Shown here: positions 1 through 27,526 of the stretch, piece by piece | Numbering within the stretch: the stretch's first letter is position 1 | Layout of the letters: each line of letters opens with the position of its first letter | NCBI RefSeq assembly: GCF_002356295.1 | Contig: NZ_AP018042.1 | Span: 1,644,361-1,708,360 of the forward strand | Length of the DNA stretch: 64,000 bases | Direction of reading: 5' to 3' | From: Labilibaculum antarcticum | Lineage (GTDB): Bacteria; Bacteroidota; Bacteroidia; Bacteroidales; Marinifilaceae | Notes under the pieces: model-generated | Told to the model about the DNA's origin: nothing | The model's database searches: none | What the model saw: the letters and a program-made list of their open reading frames with translations, nothing else | Made by a program: the position numbers and the translations under genes

Positions 1-214
1 AATTTAATATTATCGCAAAAAGTTACATACATAACACGATTTTTATTCCAAGACGTGAAACATCATAATTAAACACAAGGATTTAATTAATATTAATCAA
101 TTCAATCTTTAAAAACCTACTAGTTATGTGCTTTACAGAAGAATACCACGTCTTCTTACCTTCAACAGACACAGATGTATTTTTGATAGTGAGGAGGAAA
201 AAAAACAACTTGAG

Positions 215-252
215 TATTACAAATGTTCCACTGGCTATTACAAATGTTCCAC
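215..252. repeat. 17-bp direct repeat with 21-bp spacing, possible AraC-type operator
   Basis: The 17-mer TATTACAAATGTTCCAC occurs exactly at 215-231 and again at 236-252, so the copies are 21 bp apart, two helical turns. Known AraC-family half-sites are about 17 bp and lie as direct repeats at 21-bp spacing. The neighbouring regulator ends in an AraC-type domain. That it binds here is inference. Confidence 0.5.
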
Positions 253-440
253 ACATGCATTAATGCTTGATTATCAGAAAATTGCAGTACGAATAAAATA
301 GAATACCCAGACATACATTATAAAAAATTATTGCCTTGAGTTTTGCAATAACATCATTTTTGGGATTTGAGTTTTTGAGATTGAGTCATTTTGAAGAAAA
401 CCAGGTAGTCTTCAATCAGTAATTATCCAGATCCTAAATC

Positions 441-486
441 AAAAAAAAGCACCAATATATTATCAATTGATAATATATTGGTGCTT
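441..486 (-). terminator. Rho-independent terminator of the hybrid regulator
   Basis: A perfect 40-bp palindrome spans 447-486 with no unpaired centre in the DNA. On the minus strand it is followed by a run of eight T (441-448). It starts 19 bp beyond the stop codon of the hybrid sensor/regulator gene. Confidence 0.85.
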
Positions 487-505
487 ATCTAATTAGAATT
501 AAATC

Positions 506-3370
506 TTAGTTGGAATGCTCTTTCATATATTCCGATGGCGTACAACCTTGAATCTCTTTAAAACATTTGGAGAAATACGAAGTATCATTAAAGCCTGTTG
601 AGAAACAAACATCGCTAATCGTTACATTTGGCTTTAATAAAAATTCTGATGCCATTTTTATTCTTTGTGTTCTAATGAATGCTGTTGCAGATAAACCTGT
701 TAATGCTTTTAATTTACGATGAAGCTGTGTTCGGCTCATTAAACTTACTTCACAAAACTGATCGACCGTAAAATCGGGATCAGGCAAATGTTTCTCCAAA
801 ACTTCCTGTAAAATTTTGGCAAACTTTTCTTCTTCCGACTGAAATACTATGCCTAACGGATTAATAACAAGTTCCTTTTGAAACTTCTTTTGCATTTCTC
901 TTCGCGTGGCAATTAGTCTTTCAACCTTAACAATTAATGCTTGTGCATTAAATGGCTTCACAATGTAATCATCTGCCCCAGACTGAAGTCCCTCCAGTTC
1001 ATTCACATCACCAACTTTAGCAGTCAATAAGATAATTGGTATATGATTGGTTTTCACATCTGCTTTTAAACAGGCACAAAGCTCAACGCCTCCTACTTTT
1101 GGCATCATCACATCAGAAATAATCAAATCAGGAATGTGATCAATAGCCATCTTAATTCCCATCTCACCATCTTCCGCTTCTAAAATTTTGTACTGATGAA
1201 CAAAGTAAGTCTTAATGTATTTCCTCATGTCAAAGTTGTCCTCAACAATTAACAATACTGGTAATTCAGCAAATTTATCCTCATTTTCCAAATCTCCATT
1301 TATATCTAAATTTGCTTCATCAAGCTGTGTTTCCTTTATTTGAATAGGCAAAAGGGATATCTCGTTTGCCCTAAAATGATCTTTAGATGTTGGTAGCTGT
1401 AGCTCAAATTGAATAACTTGACTGTTTGAACAACTAATTTTTATAGGTGCGCGGTACAAAGTACAGAGTTCTTTCACTAATGAAAGACCAATTCCTGTTC
1501 CTTGCGTTTCATTTTCTCCGGCACGATAAAAACGATCAAAAATATGAGATAATTCTTCCTTTGTTAAAGTACATCCAGAATTACTTACCGTTATTTTTAT
1601 ATGATCCTCGAATCCATCGAGCTTCATTTCCACGTTCCCATTTCCAGGCACAAATTTAAATGCATTGGATAGTAAATTGGTAATTATTATTTCAACAATA
1701 TTCGTATCGAACCAAACAACACTTGATTCATTTATCTCCAGCTTATAATTAATTTTCTTTTCGGTAGCTTGATAAGTAAACGAATTTGCAATCCCTTTTA
1801 GTAAGGTGGCTAAATCGCCTTGTTGCGCATTTATAGCAAAATGCCCTGCATCAATTTTAGAGAGATCCAATAATTGATCAACCAATGAAAGTAATCGTTC
1901 CGAATTACGCAAAATTAGTTTCATCTCTTCCTGCTCCTCTTTACTATGGCTTCTAGTTAAATGCTTTTCTACAGGGCCTTTTATTAATGTTAATGGTGTT
2001 CTAAATTCATGGGAAATACTACTGAAGAATTTCGATTTCATCTGATTAATACTCTGTAACTCACTCGAAACCTTTTGTTTGTTCTTGTATAGATAATAGA
2101 AAAATGCGGCCAATCCTCCAAAGAGCAATAGTAACACGCCAAACTGATTTCTTTGCATTTTTTTAGACTCTCCAATCAGCTGATTTCTTGCATTTAACAA
2201 CTCTATCTGATGTGTTTTATTTTCCGATTGGTATTTAAATTCCAAATCATTCATTACACGATCTGATTCACTGTTGTATAACGAATCGGTATAATTTTTA
2301 TGTAATAAGAGAGCATCACTTGCCTCTTGATATCTGCCGGTCGCATAATAGATTTCATACAAAACCTGATTCGCAAACATCAAATTGTCTATGGAATGAA
2401 TTTCTTTTGAAATCAACCTTCCTTCCAGTAAATCCTTCTCCGCTTCCTTGTATCGTTTTAACTTCGAACAAACATTACCATGTTGAATTAGAATTGTACT
2501 TAAATAACGTTCATCCTCTTTTGTTCGTTGTAAATCAAGTGCTTTCTCAAAAAACACATATGCTTTTTCATACTCATTTTGAAACATTTGTACTTGCCCC
2601 AATAGTTGATAGCAAATTCCTTCCCCAATCGGGTTACCACGTAGCTTAGCCAGCTCCAACGATTTATTAATATATAAATTTGCCGAATCGGCTTCTTGCA
2701 AATAGAGATAAGCCTCTCCAACATTCCCATAACTAATCTCTAAATGATATTTATTGTCGCTACTTAAGCCATATTTTAAAGACTCTCGAAAATAAGACAG
2801 AGCCTTATCATACTCTTTTTGTACCAAATATATATTTCCTATTCCATTTTCGGCGATTGCCTTTCCATAAAAATTATTCGTGAATTTTGTTGTATTAATT
2901 GACGAAACAAAATAATTGAGCGCCTCTTCATTCCGATCCGTTTTTCGACAAACCACTCCTAATTCATTATAAATACGACCTAATTTATAGTGATCCTTTA
3001 TTTTATGAGCAAAGGGCAAAGACTTAAAATAGTAATATTTAGCAGAATCGTAGCCATGTGTATATCGGTGATTTACTCCTATCCGATAATATATTTCGGC
3101 CAGACCAGTCGTATCTTCATCTGTTTTAATTTTATTCAAAAGCAAATGTAAATAAGATGGATATTCCTCCTTTAATAGTTTCCGGTTGAAGGAAACAAGA
3201 CGAATAGCACTATCGGAATTTTCCATTTTCCCCTCAACCATCACGAGCTCATTTATGGCCGCTTTCAAACTATCCAAATCATTAAATCTGTTTTTTTTAT
3301 AATCATCCTCAGCGTACACACCACTAATATGGAACGAGAACAATAATAAAATAATGAGTTGTTTTATCAT
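506..3370 (-). CDS. Hybrid two-component system protein: TPR sensor, histidine kinase, receiver, AraC-type output
   Basis: This 954-residue protein carries a whole phosphorelay in one chain, as in the HTCS regulators that Bacteroidota use for glycan and nutrient control. A signal peptide (1-20) precedes tetratricopeptide repeats at about 90-360, predicted to be periplasmic, and one membrane helix lies at 409-426. The kinase has its H-box with His454 in SISHEFRTPL, an N-box near NLLSNAFKF (565-573) and a G-box GTGIGLS (624-630). The receiver (704-820) has phospho-acceptor Asp753 and Lys805; an AraC-type HTH occupies about 845-950. Classical HTCS sensors carry a beta-propeller (Reg_prop) domain; the TPR version differs and its ligand is unknown. 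No susC/susD genes lie in the window, so its targets are probably to the left. Confidence 0.9.
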   Translation of the reverse strand: MIKQLIILLLFSFHISGVYAEDDYKKNRFNDLDSLKAAINELVMVEGKMENSDSAIRLVSFNRKLLKEEYPSYLHLLLNKIKTDEDTTGLAEIYYRIGVNHRYTHGYDSAKYYYFKSLPFAHKIKDHYKLGRIYNELGVVCRKTDRNEEALNYFVSSINTTKFTNNFYGKAIAENGIGNIYLVQKEYDKALSYFRESLKYGLSSDNKYHLEISYGNVGEAYLYLQEADSANLYINKSLELAKLRGNPIGEGICYQLLGQVQMFQNEYEKAYVFFEKALDLQRTKEDERYLSTILIQHGNVCSKLKRYKEAEKDLLEGRLISKEIHSIDNLMFANQVLYEIYYATGRYQEASDALLLHKNYTDSLYNSESDRVMNDLEFKYQSENKTHQIELLNARNQLIGESKKMQRNQFGVLLLLFGGLAAFFYYLYKNKQKVSSELQSINQMKSKFFSSISHEFRTPLTLIKGPVEKHLTRSHSKEEQEEMKLILRNSERLLSLVDQLLDLSKIDAGHFAINAQQGDLATLLKGIANSFTYQATEKKINYKLEINESSVVWFDTNIVEIIITNLLSNAFKFVPGNGNVEMKLDGFEDHIKITVSNSGCTLTKEELSHIFDRFYRAGENETQGTGIGLSLVKELCTLYRAPIKISCSNSQVIQFELQLPTSKDHFRANEISLLPIQIKETQLDEANLDINGDLENEDKFAELPVLLIVEDNFDMRKYIKTYFVHQYKILEAEDGEMGIKMAIDHIPDLIISDVMMPKVGGVELCACLKADVKTNHIPIILLTAKVGDVNELEGLQSGADDYIVKPFNAQALIVKVERLIATRREMQKKFQKELVINPLGIVFQSEEEKFAKILQEVLEKHLPDPDFTVDQFCEVSLMSRTQLHRKLKALTGLSATAFIRTQRIKMASEFLLKPNVTISDVCFSTGFNDTSYFSKCFKEIQGCTPSEYMKEHSN

Positions 3371-22330: not shown

Positions 22331-22338
22331 TACTTTTG
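22331..22338 (+). promoter_or_regulatory. Promoter -7 element before cmk
   Basis: TACTTTTG fits TAnnTTTG and predicts transcription from about 22345, 30 bp before the cmk ATG. The TTG inside it is not a start codon. Confidence 0.45.
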
Positions 22339-22374
22339 TATCCAATTGCACAAAAAAATCGAGCAATAAAAAGA

Positions 22375-23070
22375 ATGGATATACCTGAAAAGAAACTAAT
22401 TATAGCAATTGACGGACATTCGTCGTGCGGAAAAAGTACTGTAGCCAAAGATTTGGCAAAAAAAATTGGATATACTTATATCGATAGTGGTGCAATGTAT
22501 AGAGTGATTACTCTTTTTGCAATGCGAAACAACTTAATTTCCGGTGACAAAGTAGATGAAAACAAGTTGGCTCATTTAATCAGTCAGGTAAATATCTCTT
22601 TTCAGTACAACACTGAGAAACAGCGTCACGAAACTTATTTAAATGCCGAATTGGTTGAAGATGAGATTCGAAAAATGGATGTTTCGAACAAGGTTAGCCT
22701 GATCGCAAAAATTAAATTTGTTCGCGAAAAGATGGTGGCTTTCCAACGTGAATTGAGCAAAGAAGGTGGTGTGATCATGGATGGTCGCGATATTGGAACA
22801 GTTGTTTTTCCAAATGCCGATTTAAAGATATTTATGACTGCTGATGTGGAAATAAGAGCCATTCGCCGCTATAAAGAACTTAAAAACAAAGGAGAAGATA
22901 TTTCTTTGAATGAAATCAGAGAGAACGTTTCAAAAAGAGATTTTATTGATGAAAATCGTGACGAAAGTCCGCTCCGAAAAGCTGATGATGCAATCATCCT
23001 TAACAACAGCCATTTGACTCCTGAAGAACAATTGGATTGGATTGTTGATCGCATGAATGAGATTAAGTAA
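22375..23070 (+). CDS. cmk: Cytidylate kinase
   Basis: Cmk phosphorylates CMP and dCMP with ATP for nucleotide recycling. The 231-residue product begins MDIPEKKLIIAIDGHSSCGK; the P-loop GHSSCGKST is near 14-22, followed by YIDSGAMYRVIT, and DGRDIGTVVFPNADLKIFMTA in the centre with the acceptor-binding Asp-Arg-Asp. The usual bacterial length is 220-230. The ATG at 22375 is used; a frame from a TTG at 22336 starts inside a promoter element. The IspH-PFK gene follows after 21 bp, so they are likely one operon. Confidence 0.95.
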   Translation: MDIPEKKLIIAIDGHSSCGKSTVAKDLAKKIGYTYIDSGAMYRVITLFAMRNNLISGDKVDENKLAHLISQVNISFQYNTEKQRHETYLNAELVEDEIRKMDVSNKVSLIAKIKFVREKMVAFQRELSKEGGVIMDGRDIGTVVFPNADLKIFMTADVEIRAIRRYKELKNKGEDISLNEIRENVSKRDFIDENRDESPLRKADDAIILNNSHLTPEEQLDWIVDRMNEIK

Positions 23071-23091: not shown

Positions 23092-24939
23092 ATGAAGATT
23101 GAAATTGATTCCAATGCTGGATTCTGCTTTGGCGTAGTAAATGCCATAAATAAAGCAGAAGGAATACTAAAAGAAGAAAATCAACTTTATTGTATTGGTG
23201 ATATCGTTCACAACAATATTGAAGTTGATCGTCTTACTGCTCAAGGATTAAAATCGATCAGTCATGTTCAGTTTTCAAAATTATCAGGAGAAAAAGTTTT
23301 ATTTAGAGCACATGGAGAGCCTCCTACCTCTTATGAAACTGCAAAAAAACAAAACATCGAAATTATTGATGCTTCTTGTCCTGTAGTTTTGAACTTACAA
23401 AAGAAAATAAAAAAAGCGTACCTGGAGATTCAGAAATCCAAAGGACAAATAATTATATACGGTAAAAAAGGTCATGCAGAGGTAAATGGTCTGGTAGGTC
23501 AAACCGAAGGCAAGGCAATTGTTGTTGAAAACACAGAAGATCTGAAATTGGTGAATTTCAGCTTGCCTGTCGTGTTGTTTTCACAGACAACAAAAACCAT
23601 TAGCGGCTTTGCTGAAATTTCAGAACATCTGGAAAAAAAATGCAAAAGCAGTCTGATTATCAACGACACCATTTGCAGAAAAGTATCAAATCGTGTTCCT
23701 CTATTGGAAGAATTTGCAAACCAACACGATGTGATCATTTTTGTGAGCGGAAAAAAAAGCTCGAACGGAAAATTACTGTTCGATGTCTGTAAAAAAACGA
23801 ATCAAAACAGTCACTTTATCACTTGCCCTGATGAACTGAATATGGATTGGTTTGTGAATGCGCAATCAGTTGGTGTAAGCGGTGCAACATCCACTCCCAA
23901 CTGGCTGATGAATGAAACAATGGAAAAAATAAAACTTGAAAACAAAAGCGATTTAAGCATGTCTAAAATTAAGAAAATTGGAGTTCTAACTTCAGGAGGA
24001 GATGCTCCAGGAATGAATGCAGCCATCAGAGCTGTTGTACGTGCTGCGATCTACAACAAACTTGAGGTTGTAGGTATAATGCAAGGATACGAAGGCTTAA
24101 TTAATGGAGAAATCAAAAAAATGAAATCTCATGATGTAAGCAACATTATTCAACGAGGAGGAACCATTCTTTGTTCGGCCAGAAGTGAAGAATTTAGAAC
24201 CGTAGAAGGAAGGAAAAAGGCACATGAGCAAATGATTGCCAACAAAATTGATGCTCTTGTTGTTATTGGCGGAGATGGAACTTTTTCAGGAGCCCGTGTT
24301 TTTACTCAGGAATATGATATCCCTGTAGTTGGAATTCCGGGTACTATTGATAATGATTTGTTCGGTACCGATTATACCATTGGTTACGATACAGCTATCA
24401 ATACTGTAACTGAAGCTGTTGATAAGATACGAGATACTGCGAGTGCTCACAACCGTTTATTCTTTATTGAAGTAATGGGACGTGATGCTGGTTTTATTGC
24501 TTTACGCAGCGGTATTGCTACGGGAGCAGAAGCAATTTTGATCCCTGAAAGAGAAACTCACACTCAAGAGTTGCAAACATACCTTGAAAAAGAATACAAA
24601 GAACACAAAACGAGTGGTATTGTAATTGTAGCCGAAGGTGATAAATCGGGTGGTGCCTATACAATTGCTCAGGAAATTGGGAAAGATCATCCTGAATACG
24701 ATATCCGTGTTTCGATATTGGGTCACATGCAAAGAGGTGGTTCTCCATCAGCTTTCGACCGCGTAACTGCATCTACTTTAGGTGTTGCTGCTGTTGATGC
24801 ATTACTTGATGATCAGAAGAGCATCATGGTAGGATTGGTGCACGGTGAAGTTTCACATGTTTCATTCAACAAAGCAATTAAAAACAAAAAGAAAGTAAAA
24901 GATTCATTACTGATTCTTAACGATATTCTTTCGATCTAA
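23092..24939 (+). CDS. IspH (HMBPP reductase) fused in frame to 6-phosphofructokinase
   Basis: One open frame of 615 codons joins two complete enzymes. Residues 1-285 are IspH, the last enzyme of the MEP isoprenoid pathway, with [4Fe-4S] ligands Cys12 (AGFCFG), Cys96 (DASCPVV) and Cys195 (NDTICRKV) and the end motif GATSTPNWLM. Residues 290-615 are an ATP-type bacterial phosphofructokinase with GGDAPGMN (302-309), GGDGTFSG, PGTIDND and MGRDAGFIA, of normal length. The junction is about KLENKSDLS-MSKIKK, with an ATG at 23959 (Met290) that would be the natural pfkA start. In Bacteroides I recall cmk, ispH and pfkA as adjacent separate genes. Either this is a true fusion, or a single-base error in nearby A-runs removed the ispH stop; the DNA reads ATTTAAGCATG in another frame. 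An internal start could also give separate PFK. Confidence 0.85.
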   Translation: MKIEIDSNAGFCFGVVNAINKAEGILKEENQLYCIGDIVHNNIEVDRLTAQGLKSISHVQFSKLSGEKVLFRAHGEPPTSYETAKKQNIEIIDASCPVVLNLQKKIKKAYLEIQKSKGQIIIYGKKGHAEVNGLVGQTEGKAIVVENTEDLKLVNFSLPVVLFSQTTKTISGFAEISEHLEKKCKSSLIINDTICRKVSNRVPLLEEFANQHDVIIFVSGKKSSNGKLLFDVCKKTNQNSHFITCPDELNMDWFVNAQSVGVSGATSTPNWLMNETMEKIKLENKSDLSMSKIKKIGVLTSGGDAPGMNAAIRAVVRAAIYNKLEVVGIMQGYEGLINGEIKKMKSHDVSNIIQRGGTILCSARSEEFRTVEGRKKAHEQMIANKIDALVVIGGDGTFSGARVFTQEYDIPVVGIPGTIDNDLFGTDYTIGYDTAINTVTEAVDKIRDTASAHNRLFFIEVMGRDAGFIALRSGIATGAEAILIPERETHTQELQTYLEKEYKEHKTSGIVIVAEGDKSGGAYTIAQEIGKDHPEYDIRVSILGHMQRGGSPSAFDRVTASTLGVAAVDALLDDQKSIMVGLVHGEVSHVSFNKAIKNKKKVKDSLLILNDILSI

Positions 24940-25025: not shown

Positions 25026-25033
25026 TAACTTTG
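25026..25033 (+). promoter_or_regulatory. Promoter -7 element of priA
   Basis: TAACTTTG fits TAnnTTTG. Predicted transcription starts at about 25040, at or just before the two candidate ATG codons. No matching TTG was found upstream. Confidence 0.4.
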
Positions 25034-25039
25034 AGGAAA

Positions 25040-27526
25040 ATGAACACTTTAATGAACAAGACTACCGATTTTGCAGATATCATACTACCACTTCCATTGG
25101 CTCAGCTTTTTACCTACTCTATTCCAGAGGAATTAAAAGCTGATGTTGCCATTGGAAAAAGGGTAGTTGTTCCTTTCGGCAGTAAAAAGTTCTACACCGG
25201 AATTGTAAAAAGCATTCACAATACTCCTCCAACAGATTATTCCACCAAAGAGATTATCACTTGTCTGGATGAATCTCCAATTATCAATTCATTTCAATTC
25301 AGTTTTTGGGAGTGGATTTCACAATACTATCAGTGTACAATAGGTGACGTTTTTAAGGCAGCTCTTCCTTCCGGATTAAAGTTGGAAAGTCAGACCAAGA
25401 TAACTGTAAATGAAAATTTTCAGGCTCAGGAAGTTCTTAGCAAAACCGAGGAACAAATTCTGAATGTACTAAAGCATTCAAAAGATGTAAATATTTCGAC
25501 TTTAAATCAGGCAACTGGTCTAAAAAACACCCTACCACAGGTAAAATCTTTGCTTGAAAAAGGAGCTGTTTCTATTGAGGAACAAATCATTAACACCTAT
25601 AAAGAGAAAAAGAAAGAATTTGTTCGACTGGCATCTAATTTTAACGAATCAGATATAGCGGCTGTAATTGATGGCTTAAAAAGAGCTAAAAAACAGCAGG
25701 AGATTCTTCACTCCTACCTCAATCTTTCCAAACACTATTTTGAAGAAAATGCCCTTAAAGTTTCGGTGACAGAACTTCTAAAGTCTATTGATGCCTCGAA
25801 AGGAATTTTAAAAAGTTTAGTCGAAAAAAACATTCTTGAAATTTACCATGAAAAACTGGATCGGATTGATCTTTCGGAAACGGAAACTTCGGGACTAAAA
25901 GAGTTGAATGAACATCAGCAGAAAGCAATTATTGAGACCCGTAAGCAATTCGAGGAAAAGAATTGTGTGTTGCTTCACGGAGTAACTTCAAGCGGTAAAA
26001 CCGAGATATACATTCATTTGATTCAAGAGCAATTACAGCAAGGTAAACAGGTTCTTTACCTTCTCCCAGAAATTGCTTTAACAACTCAGATTATTAACCG
26101 CTTACGAACCGTATTTGGAAATAAGGTAGGAATCTATCATTCCAAATTTAACGATGCCGAGCGCGTAGAAATCTACAACAACATCAATCAAAATGATCCT
26201 GAAAATGCCTATCAGGTTATTTTAGGGGTTCGATCATCGATATTCCTGCCTTTCAAAAACTTAGGTTTGGTTATTGTCGATGAAGAGCATGAAAACACTT
26301 ACAAACAGTTTGATCCGGCTCCCCGGTATCACGCCCGCGATGCTTCTCTTTATCTGGCTCATCTGCACAAAGCAAAAACCTTATTGGGTACTGCAACTCC
26401 AGCAATAGAAACCTACTACAATGCCAAAACGGGCAAGTATGGTTTGGTAGAATTGTTTCAGCGACACCAAAATCTGGAAATGCCCGAAATAATTATTGCT
26501 GATGTAAAAGAAGCAACGCGAAAGAAACAAATGAAATCAATGTTCTCTCCTCAACTGATGCAAATGATGGAGACTTGCCTGGAGAATAAGGAACAGATTA
26601 TTTTATTTCAGAACAGAAGAGGATATTCTCCCTACCTGGAATGTAAAAGTTGTGGATGGGTTCCTCATTGTCCAAACTGTTCGGTTAGCTTAACGTATCA
26701 CCGATACAACAATCAGCTGGTTTGCCATTACTGTGCACACAGTATTCATCCGCCAACGAGTTGTGAGCATTGCGGTTCAACCGAAATTGAAGACCGGGGA
26801 TTTGGAACCGAAAAAATTGAAGAAGAATTGACGGGCTTATTTCCTGATGCACGAATTGCACGAATGGATTTGGATACCACTCGAAAAAAGATGGCTTACG
26901 AAAAACTCATTTACAAATTCGAAAACAATGAACTCGATATTTTAGTAGGGACGCAAATGGTTTCAAAGGGTCTCGATTTTGATAATGTTAGTTTAGTTGG
27001 GGTATTGAATGCTGACTCGATGCTGAATTATCCGGATTACCGTGCCTATGAGCGCAGCTTTCAAATGATGGCTCAGGTTTCCGGTCGTGCCGGACGAAAA
27101 AAGAAAAGAGGAAAAGTGTTGATTCAAACTTATACACCAGAACACCCAATCATTAAAAATGTGATCGAAAATGATTACGTATCTATGTATAATGGTCAAC
27201 TGGCAGAAAGAAAAGAATACATTTATCCACCCTACTACAGATTAATCAATATCTGTTTGAAACACAAAAACCAGACATTGGTGAATCAGGCTGCTGCGAT
27301 CCTTGCAAAATCCTTGCATAAAGTTTTTGGCATTCGCGTTTTTGGCCCGCAATCGCCTGTTATAAACCGAATTCAAAACTACCACATCGTTAATATACTT
27401 TTGAAAATAGAGAAGAAAAGTTCGCCATCAAAAGCCAAATGGATTTTAAATCAACACGCGAATCATTTAAAAAGTATGGATCAATTTAAATCTATTCAAG
27501 TGAATTTTGATGTTGATCCGATGTAA
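25040..27526 (+). CDS. priA: Primosomal protein N' (replication restart helicase PriA)
   Basis: PriA reloads the replisome at collapsed forks and unwinds DNA in the 3'-5' direction. The roughly 828-residue product has the N-terminal 3'BD domain (DIILPLPLAQLFTYSIP), the Walker A segment GVTSSGKTE near residue 315, DEEH near 413, and between the helicase lobes eight cysteines in four CxxC pairs (about 534-580, CKSCGW...CPNC...CHYC...CEHCG) that bind two zinc ions. Motifs GTQMVSKGLDF and GRAGR follow. I take the ATG at 25040; 25052 is equally possible, and the TTG at 25031 is part of a promoter element. A 21-bp repeat array begins right after the stop codon. Confidence 0.95.
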   Translation: MNTLMNKTTDFADIILPLPLAQLFTYSIPEELKADVAIGKRVVVPFGSKKFYTGIVKSIHNTPPTDYSTKEIITCLDESPIINSFQFSFWEWISQYYQCTIGDVFKAALPSGLKLESQTKITVNENFQAQEVLSKTEEQILNVLKHSKDVNISTLNQATGLKNTLPQVKSLLEKGAVSIEEQIINTYKEKKKEFVRLASNFNESDIAAVIDGLKRAKKQQEILHSYLNLSKHYFEENALKVSVTELLKSIDASKGILKSLVEKNILEIYHEKLDRIDLSETETSGLKELNEHQQKAIIETRKQFEEKNCVLLHGVTSSGKTEIYIHLIQEQLQQGKQVLYLLPEIALTTQIINRLRTVFGNKVGIYHSKFNDAERVEIYNNINQNDPENAYQVILGVRSSIFLPFKNLGLVIVDEEHENTYKQFDPAPRYHARDASLYLAHLHKAKTLLGTATPAIETYYNAKTGKYGLVELFQRHQNLEMPEIIIADVKEATRKKQMKSMFSPQLMQMMETCLENKEQIILFQNRRGYSPYLECKSCGWVPHCPNCSVSLTYHRYNNQLVCHYCAHSIHPPTSCEHCGSTEIEDRGFGTEKIEEELTGLFPDARIARMDLDTTRKKMAYEKLIYKFENNELDILVGTQMVSKGLDFDNVSLVGVLNADSMLNYPDYRAYERSFQMMAQVSGRAGRKKKRGKVLIQTYTPEHPIIKNVIENDYVSMYNGQLAERKEYIYPPYYRLINICLKHKNQTLVNQAAAILAKSLHKVFGIRVFGPQSPVINRIQNYHIVNILLKIEKKSSPSKAKWILNQHANHLKSMDQFKSIQVNFDVDPM

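Follow-up and report, generated by a model that had tools for sequence, protein, structure and literature searches.

The frame at positions 23092 to 24939 of the window (the whole 64,000-nucleotide stretch of the Labilibaculum antarcticum genome analysed here) raises the question of whether it is a genuine fusion of the genes for HMBPP reductase (IspH), which completes isoprenoid precursors, and for 6-phosphofructokinase (PFK), a key enzyme of glycolysis, and, if so, which proteins it gives rise to. The host genome consists of one contig of 5.72 Mb, and the gene order at the locus is porQ, cmk, ispH-pfkA, priA. The features considered are the following:

22336..23070, + strand: cmk, (d)CMP kinase, the upstream neighbour (TIGR00017, 236.6 bits, cut-off 135.55); its true start may lie downstream of the listed TTG
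23092..24939, + strand: fused ispH-pfkA reading frame, 615 aa with an ATG start, intact in relatives
23092..23943, + strand: IspH (HMBPP reductase) part, codons 1-284, with profile matches and cysteines 12, 96 and 195
23926..23961, + strand: putative embedded translation-initiation region for a free PFK, proposed from context and folding scores, the invariant A at -3 and ATG, and low synonymous change
23944..23958, + strand: linker, codons 285-289, mostly of low pLDDT; codon 286 is a stop in the Ancylomarina group
23959-23961, + strand: ATG codon 290 (Met290), the end of the putative embedded initiation region
23959..24939, + strand: ATP-dependent 6-phosphofructokinase part, codons 290-615, with Pfam and NCBIfam matches
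25031..27526, + strand: priA, replication restart helicase, the downstream neighbour (TIGR00595, 593.5 bits, cut-off 230.35)

In line with the original prediction, the 615-codon frame was found to carry a complete IspH and a complete PFK, as judged by the open reading frame and by Pfam and NCBIfam matches of near full length. The Pfam domains LYTB and PFK covered residues 4-281 and 295-571, respectively. Among the NCBIfam models, the IspH equivalog PRK01045.1-1 (346.1 bits, cut-off 276) and PFKA_ATP, TIGR02482 (420.5 bits, cut-off 371.35), were each covered over nearly the whole profile, and the IspH part also scored above the cut-off of TIGR00216 (218.6 vs. 187.85 bits). In IspH, three cysteines hold the 4Fe-4S cluster; Cys12, Cys96 and Cys195 were present where they had been predicted and aligned with cysteines of the solved IspHs 3dnf and 4h4c. 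ATP-type PfkA proteins are recognized by the residues GGDG and PGTIDND, and the PFK part contains IGGDGT at 392-397 and GTIDND from residue 417 with a proline just before it, so that the ATP-type residues are present. The junction reads GATTTAAGCATG, with A6 and A4 runs nearby, exactly as originally described. In the AlphaFold model (mean pLDDT 72.6 and pTM 0.49, 23 sequences), the IspH half was of high confidence, with its last helix at 270-285, linker residues 286-291 fell below a pLDDT of 50, and the PFK half was of low confidence, probably owing to the shallow alignment.

A search of the host genome with IspH found no second IspH match. Four PFK-like frames were detected, of which the fused one alone passes PFKA_ATP; the other three (253.6 bits, 187.4 bits and a third unlisted at E 1e-30) all lie below the cut-off. 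The fused PFK need not be the sole source of PFK activity in the genome, since the paralogue scoring 253.6 reaches 354.6 bits with PRK03202.1, a broader model of the ATP-PFK subfamily (cut-off 253).

The distribution of the joined frame was analyzed by searching 56 genomes of the family with the IspH part. A match was obtained in 52 of them, and in 16 of these, the window's own included, the frame runs on through PFK (by genus code: eight in g1, which is the window's, two in g10, one each in g9 and g7, and four in g5). The fused frame was not seen in the other 36, where some matches were fragments at contig ends (G070, G077), and G005 (63% complete) was without an IspH match. When all 16 fused loci were read base by base, 289 codons preceded the PFK ATG and the linker held neither a stop nor an indel; the row of G001 is one codon shorter (614). 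The same reading was obtained in 12 named records, most of which are the same genomes as in the family set. Fused records belong to Labilibaculum (sp. K2S, L. euxinus, L. manganireducens and L. filiforme), to Marinifilum (sp. N1E240, caeruleilacunae, breve, flexuosum, sp. D714, sp. D737 and fragile) and to a Marinifilaceae MAG, and the nearest named relatives of the window's protein are Labilibaculum species, with 90-91% identity across the 615 residues. In a 2025 proposal, Ancylomarina and Labilibaculum would be merged into Marinifilum (PMC12325347).

A search for IspH-PFK pairs in relatives, as the original prediction had suggested, therefore returns the joined frame in Labilibaculum and Marinifilum, and its reservation that all close relatives might possess two separate genes did not hold, 15 other family genomes being fused. 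With the frame open in 16 of 52 matched genomes, we consider a real in-frame IspH-PFK gene fusion to be very nearly certain.

Further searches were performed outside the family. The whole fused protein (E <= 1e-165) gave nine joined matches in 393 genomes of the order, all of which except the window's own hold one to three stop codons, and a single match, the window's own, in 395 genomes of the phylum; in both searches a fusion with a long linker splitting the match could escape this threshold. With PFK alone (E <= 1e-90), 80 of 144 order genomes matched and the window's frame alone exceeded 560 aa, followed by frames of 527 and 475. IspH alone matched in 266 of 295 order genomes, among matches listed down to about 1e-88, and in 49 of 149 genomes of the class, where no frame except the window's was longer than 373. 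Apparent additional fusions in G018, G036, G040 and G048 (listed frames of 475-672) were rejected, as direct reading shows a stop between the genes in all of them; G344 (484 aa) and G259 (465 aa) were also rejected as PFK fusions, their length being due to open frame upstream.

The unfused state in relatives is near-identical, and the fusion step can consequently be read base by base. In the Ancylomarina group (g17), all five genomes have a single in-frame TAA, which is codon 286 and lies nine bases ahead of the PFK ATG, in the same register and spacing, and the 45 bases around the junction vary at only one position among the five. Elsewhere among the unfused family loci that were read, ispH and pfkA are close but in varying frames, with gaps of 1-115 bases and, in G029, a short overlap. 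Across the order, ispH and pfkA are co-oriented and no more than 350 bases apart in 21 of 46 genomes (those with both IspH and PFK among the matches listed, the window's own omitted). The likeliest origin of the fusion, judging from these junctions, would be the loss of a single stop codon between operon neighbours: adjacent ispH and pfkA, a layout common in Bacteroidales, would already have been in frame with a lone TAA between them, nine bases ahead of the pfkA ATG, a state kept in the Ancylomarina group, and loss of this TAA would have joined them in a form that became fixed in the Labilibaculum-Marinifilum lineage of marine Bacteroidales.

In a tree of rpoB, ileS and gyrA, with G028 omitted, the 15 fused genomes formed one clade (SH-aLRT 100), sister to the Ancylomarina group. 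The combined IspH and PFK tree, with G028 among its rows, needs two changes. One gain followed by one later loss or split of the fusion is also possible, because in the tree of rpoB alone, which included G028, the Ancylomarina group falls within the fused genomes (p-AU 0.009 against a single fused clade).

G028 itself is a mosaic. Its ispH part is 98.8% identical to that of G017, while its PFK part shows 99.6% DNA identity to Ancylomarina DW003. The first crossover falls within bases 866-873 (the ATG being 868-870) and the second within 1834-1837 of the 1848-base gene, and the fusion frame is kept. The two relatives compared have no more than a 6-base run in common at the junction. This is suggestive of an unfused pfkA having taken the place of the PFK half in a fused gene. 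The rpoB, ileS and gyrA genes of G028 likewise combine Ancylomarina DW003-like with G017-like stretches, with crossovers within each gene, and the cause may be either genuine large-scale recombination or a fault in the assembly.

As to whether the open linker has been maintained by selection, a neutral simulation calibrated on fourfold sites gave a probability of 0.006-0.03, depending on the starting sequence, for a stop-free 7-codon linker in all 17 leaves, although some columns of G001 (614 codons) in the fourfold set may be shifted. This constitutes moderate evidence that read-through is under selection. That at least some of the product is a single fused chain is in our view highly probable.

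The overall explanation that we favour, with some reserve, is a fusion with two products. One mRNA would yield an IspH-PFK chain of approximately 67 kDa (estimated from 615 residues), presumably with both activities present, and a free PFK of approximately 36 kDa translated from Met290, which could cover glycolytic demand and, on our assumption, form tetramers with fused subunits. The sequence around Met290 supports the proposal that it may act as an internal start. In a start-composition model built from 64 unambiguous starts and 1563 internal ATGs in 464 kb of genome (AUC 0.96, scored on its own training set), Met290 scored 3.74, compared to means of 3.75 for starts and -4.19 for internal ATGs. 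This places it at the 52nd percentile of the 64 starts and the 99th of the 1563 internal ATGs, and it scores highest of the gene's 12 in-frame ATGs. In the 18 fused loci scored, Met290 fell at the 84th-100th percentile of internal ATGs, the lowest values being those of G001 (84th), G017 (93rd) and G028 (93rd). The model does miss some real starts, since it gives the accepted ispH start -3.50, a lower score than that of any of the 64 training starts. The folding energy from -30 to +30 of Met290 was -2.5, vs. means of -3.0 for starts and -9.1 for 400 internal ATGs; at -8.4, the pfkA start of G034 and G059, where the gene is separate, is about as structured as an average internal ATG, and therefore weak structure alone decides little.

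In G001, G017 and G028, a Shine-Dalgarno-like GAGGAG precedes the internal PFK ATG. AGGA or GGAG was found upstream of only 0.047 of the 64 G000 starts, and GAGGAG is probably not used by Bacteroidia ribosomes (PMC9976891).

Conservation around codon 290 points in the same direction as the start scores. The A at -3 and the ATG were invariant in the 17 fused sequences compared, and the neutral simulation on fourfold sites gave a probability of at most 5e-5 that the ATG would be kept in all 17; Met290 may, however, also have been kept for the sake of the protein. In Flavobacterium, an A at -3 is described as a positive determinant (PMC6847099). Further, synonymous change at codons 279-287, measured per conserved codon in 16 sequences with G001 omitted, was 0.32 of expectation, with about 1% of windows lower, in a window resting on five codons (3 changes vs. 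9.3 expected). The A-rich linker may look start-like merely through its Lys, Asn and Glu codons. Bacteroidetes promoters carry a -7 motif, and a search for this motif as a sign of a promoter just before pfkA gave a null result, with 100 hits in the window against a shuffle mean of 88 and 11 of 100 shuffles as high; the closest + strand motif preceding Met290 is at 23384. On balance, these signals make it somewhat probable that a free PFK is made from Met290 in addition to the fused chain.

The strongest competing explanation is that only the fused protein is made, the internal ATG being a relic and all product a bifunctional IspH-PFK. The open frame kept across the clade, the invariant linker length in the fused loci read and the imperfection of the start model are all compatible with it, but the start-like context, the invariant A at -3 and ATG and the low synonymous change upstream of Met290 speak against it, and a single product would tie a glycolytic enzyme to a biosynthetic one in a 1:1 ratio. 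We consider it a tentative alternative, clearly behind the production of both forms. It is unlikely that the enzymes are mostly separate, with the chain either cut in the linker or minor beside free PFK: the short, low-confidence linker at 286-291 and the start-like internal signals would suit this, whereas no stops occur across the tree, even though a stop would be the simpler route to separate proteins. Still less probable is an elaboration in which one message yields IspH-PFK and free PFK in mixed tetramers and the IspH domain tunes the activity or location of PFK, so that the state of the isoprenoid enzyme, IspH being an oxygen-sensitive iron-sulphur enzyme, would gate glycolysis. The original prediction had likewise seen in the fusion a tie between isoprenoid synthesis and glycolysis; we found no evidence for this, such metabolic coupling is unsupported, and the idea is weakened by the fusion of IspH to unrelated neighbours elsewhere in the order. 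Finally, a sequencing or assembly error joining two genes, such as the one-base deletion that had been envisaged and that the A-runs near the junction might favour, is refuted by the identical frame and 289-codon spacing in 15 other family genomes and can be dismissed.

If the internal start is used, as the two-product explanation holds, the locus would represent a simple example of gene fusion in which the free enzyme is still made beside the joined one, and it would bear on how often the annotation of fused genes misses a second product, as well as on the tolerance of PFK to an attached Fe-S enzyme.

PFK is a glycolytic and soluble enzyme. With it, the IspH fusions surveyed in 2015 gain a glycolytic partner that is retained in several genera. 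That survey, by Rao et al., covered 15,660 IspHs, and its main text, from which phosphofructokinase is absent, names no PFK fusion (PMC4746011). A literature search, in which few subscription journals were covered, found no paper on an IspH-PFK fusion. PFK is hence a fusion partner of IspH absent from the 2015 survey, IspH fusions as such being already known.

Like the IspH-RPS1 proteins (PRK00087), the window's protein carries a second protein after the IspH C-terminus in one chain. There, however, the partner is ribosomal protein S1 and the hosts are anaerobes such as Clostridium and Fusobacterium (PMC4746011); against PRK00087 the window's protein reached only 236 bits (cut-off 624), with PFK in place of the S1 repeats. 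As the same source reports, the IspH-RPS1 of Clostridium thermocellum is catalytically active, with similar IspH activity when the RPS1 repeats are removed (PMC4746011), and an extended IspH C-terminus is therefore tolerated there. The IspH-helicase of Bacteroidales bacterium CF also comes from the Bacteroidales and has IspH followed by its partner in one chain, but that partner is a helicase and the fusion was reported from a single species (PMC4746011). IspH-UbiA, known there from 47 sequences, primarily of Desulfobacterales, shares a C-terminal partner enzyme, in this case a prenyltransferase-like membrane protein (PMC4746011).

Three further in-frame fusions were observed among the order IspH matches listed, each in one genome. 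In G277 (132-3029, - strand), IspH is fused to PriA in a protein of 965 aa that resembles the IspH-helicase of Bacteroidales bacterium CF as described in PMC4746011. In G323 (67-2862), one draft genome, DXS is fused to IspH (931 aa), which links the enzyme that opens the MEP pathway to one that acts late in it; the IspH frames of two other genomes of its family (f75) are 293 and 373. In G085 (875-2188, - strand), the IspH frame continues into a PNPOx_N domain (437 aa). In DXS-IspH, unlike the PriA and PNPOx-like fusions, both parts are enzymes of the same pathway. The occurrence of PriA, DXS and PNPOx-like partners in the order speaks for ordinary merging of neighbours and suggests that IspH merges with whichever gene adjoins it, not through a specific metabolic bond. 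The separate pfkA lying downstream of ispH in 21 of the 46 order genomes compared shows the same enzyme and gene order as the window's locus, differing in that it is unfused, with IspH frames of 288-331 codons.
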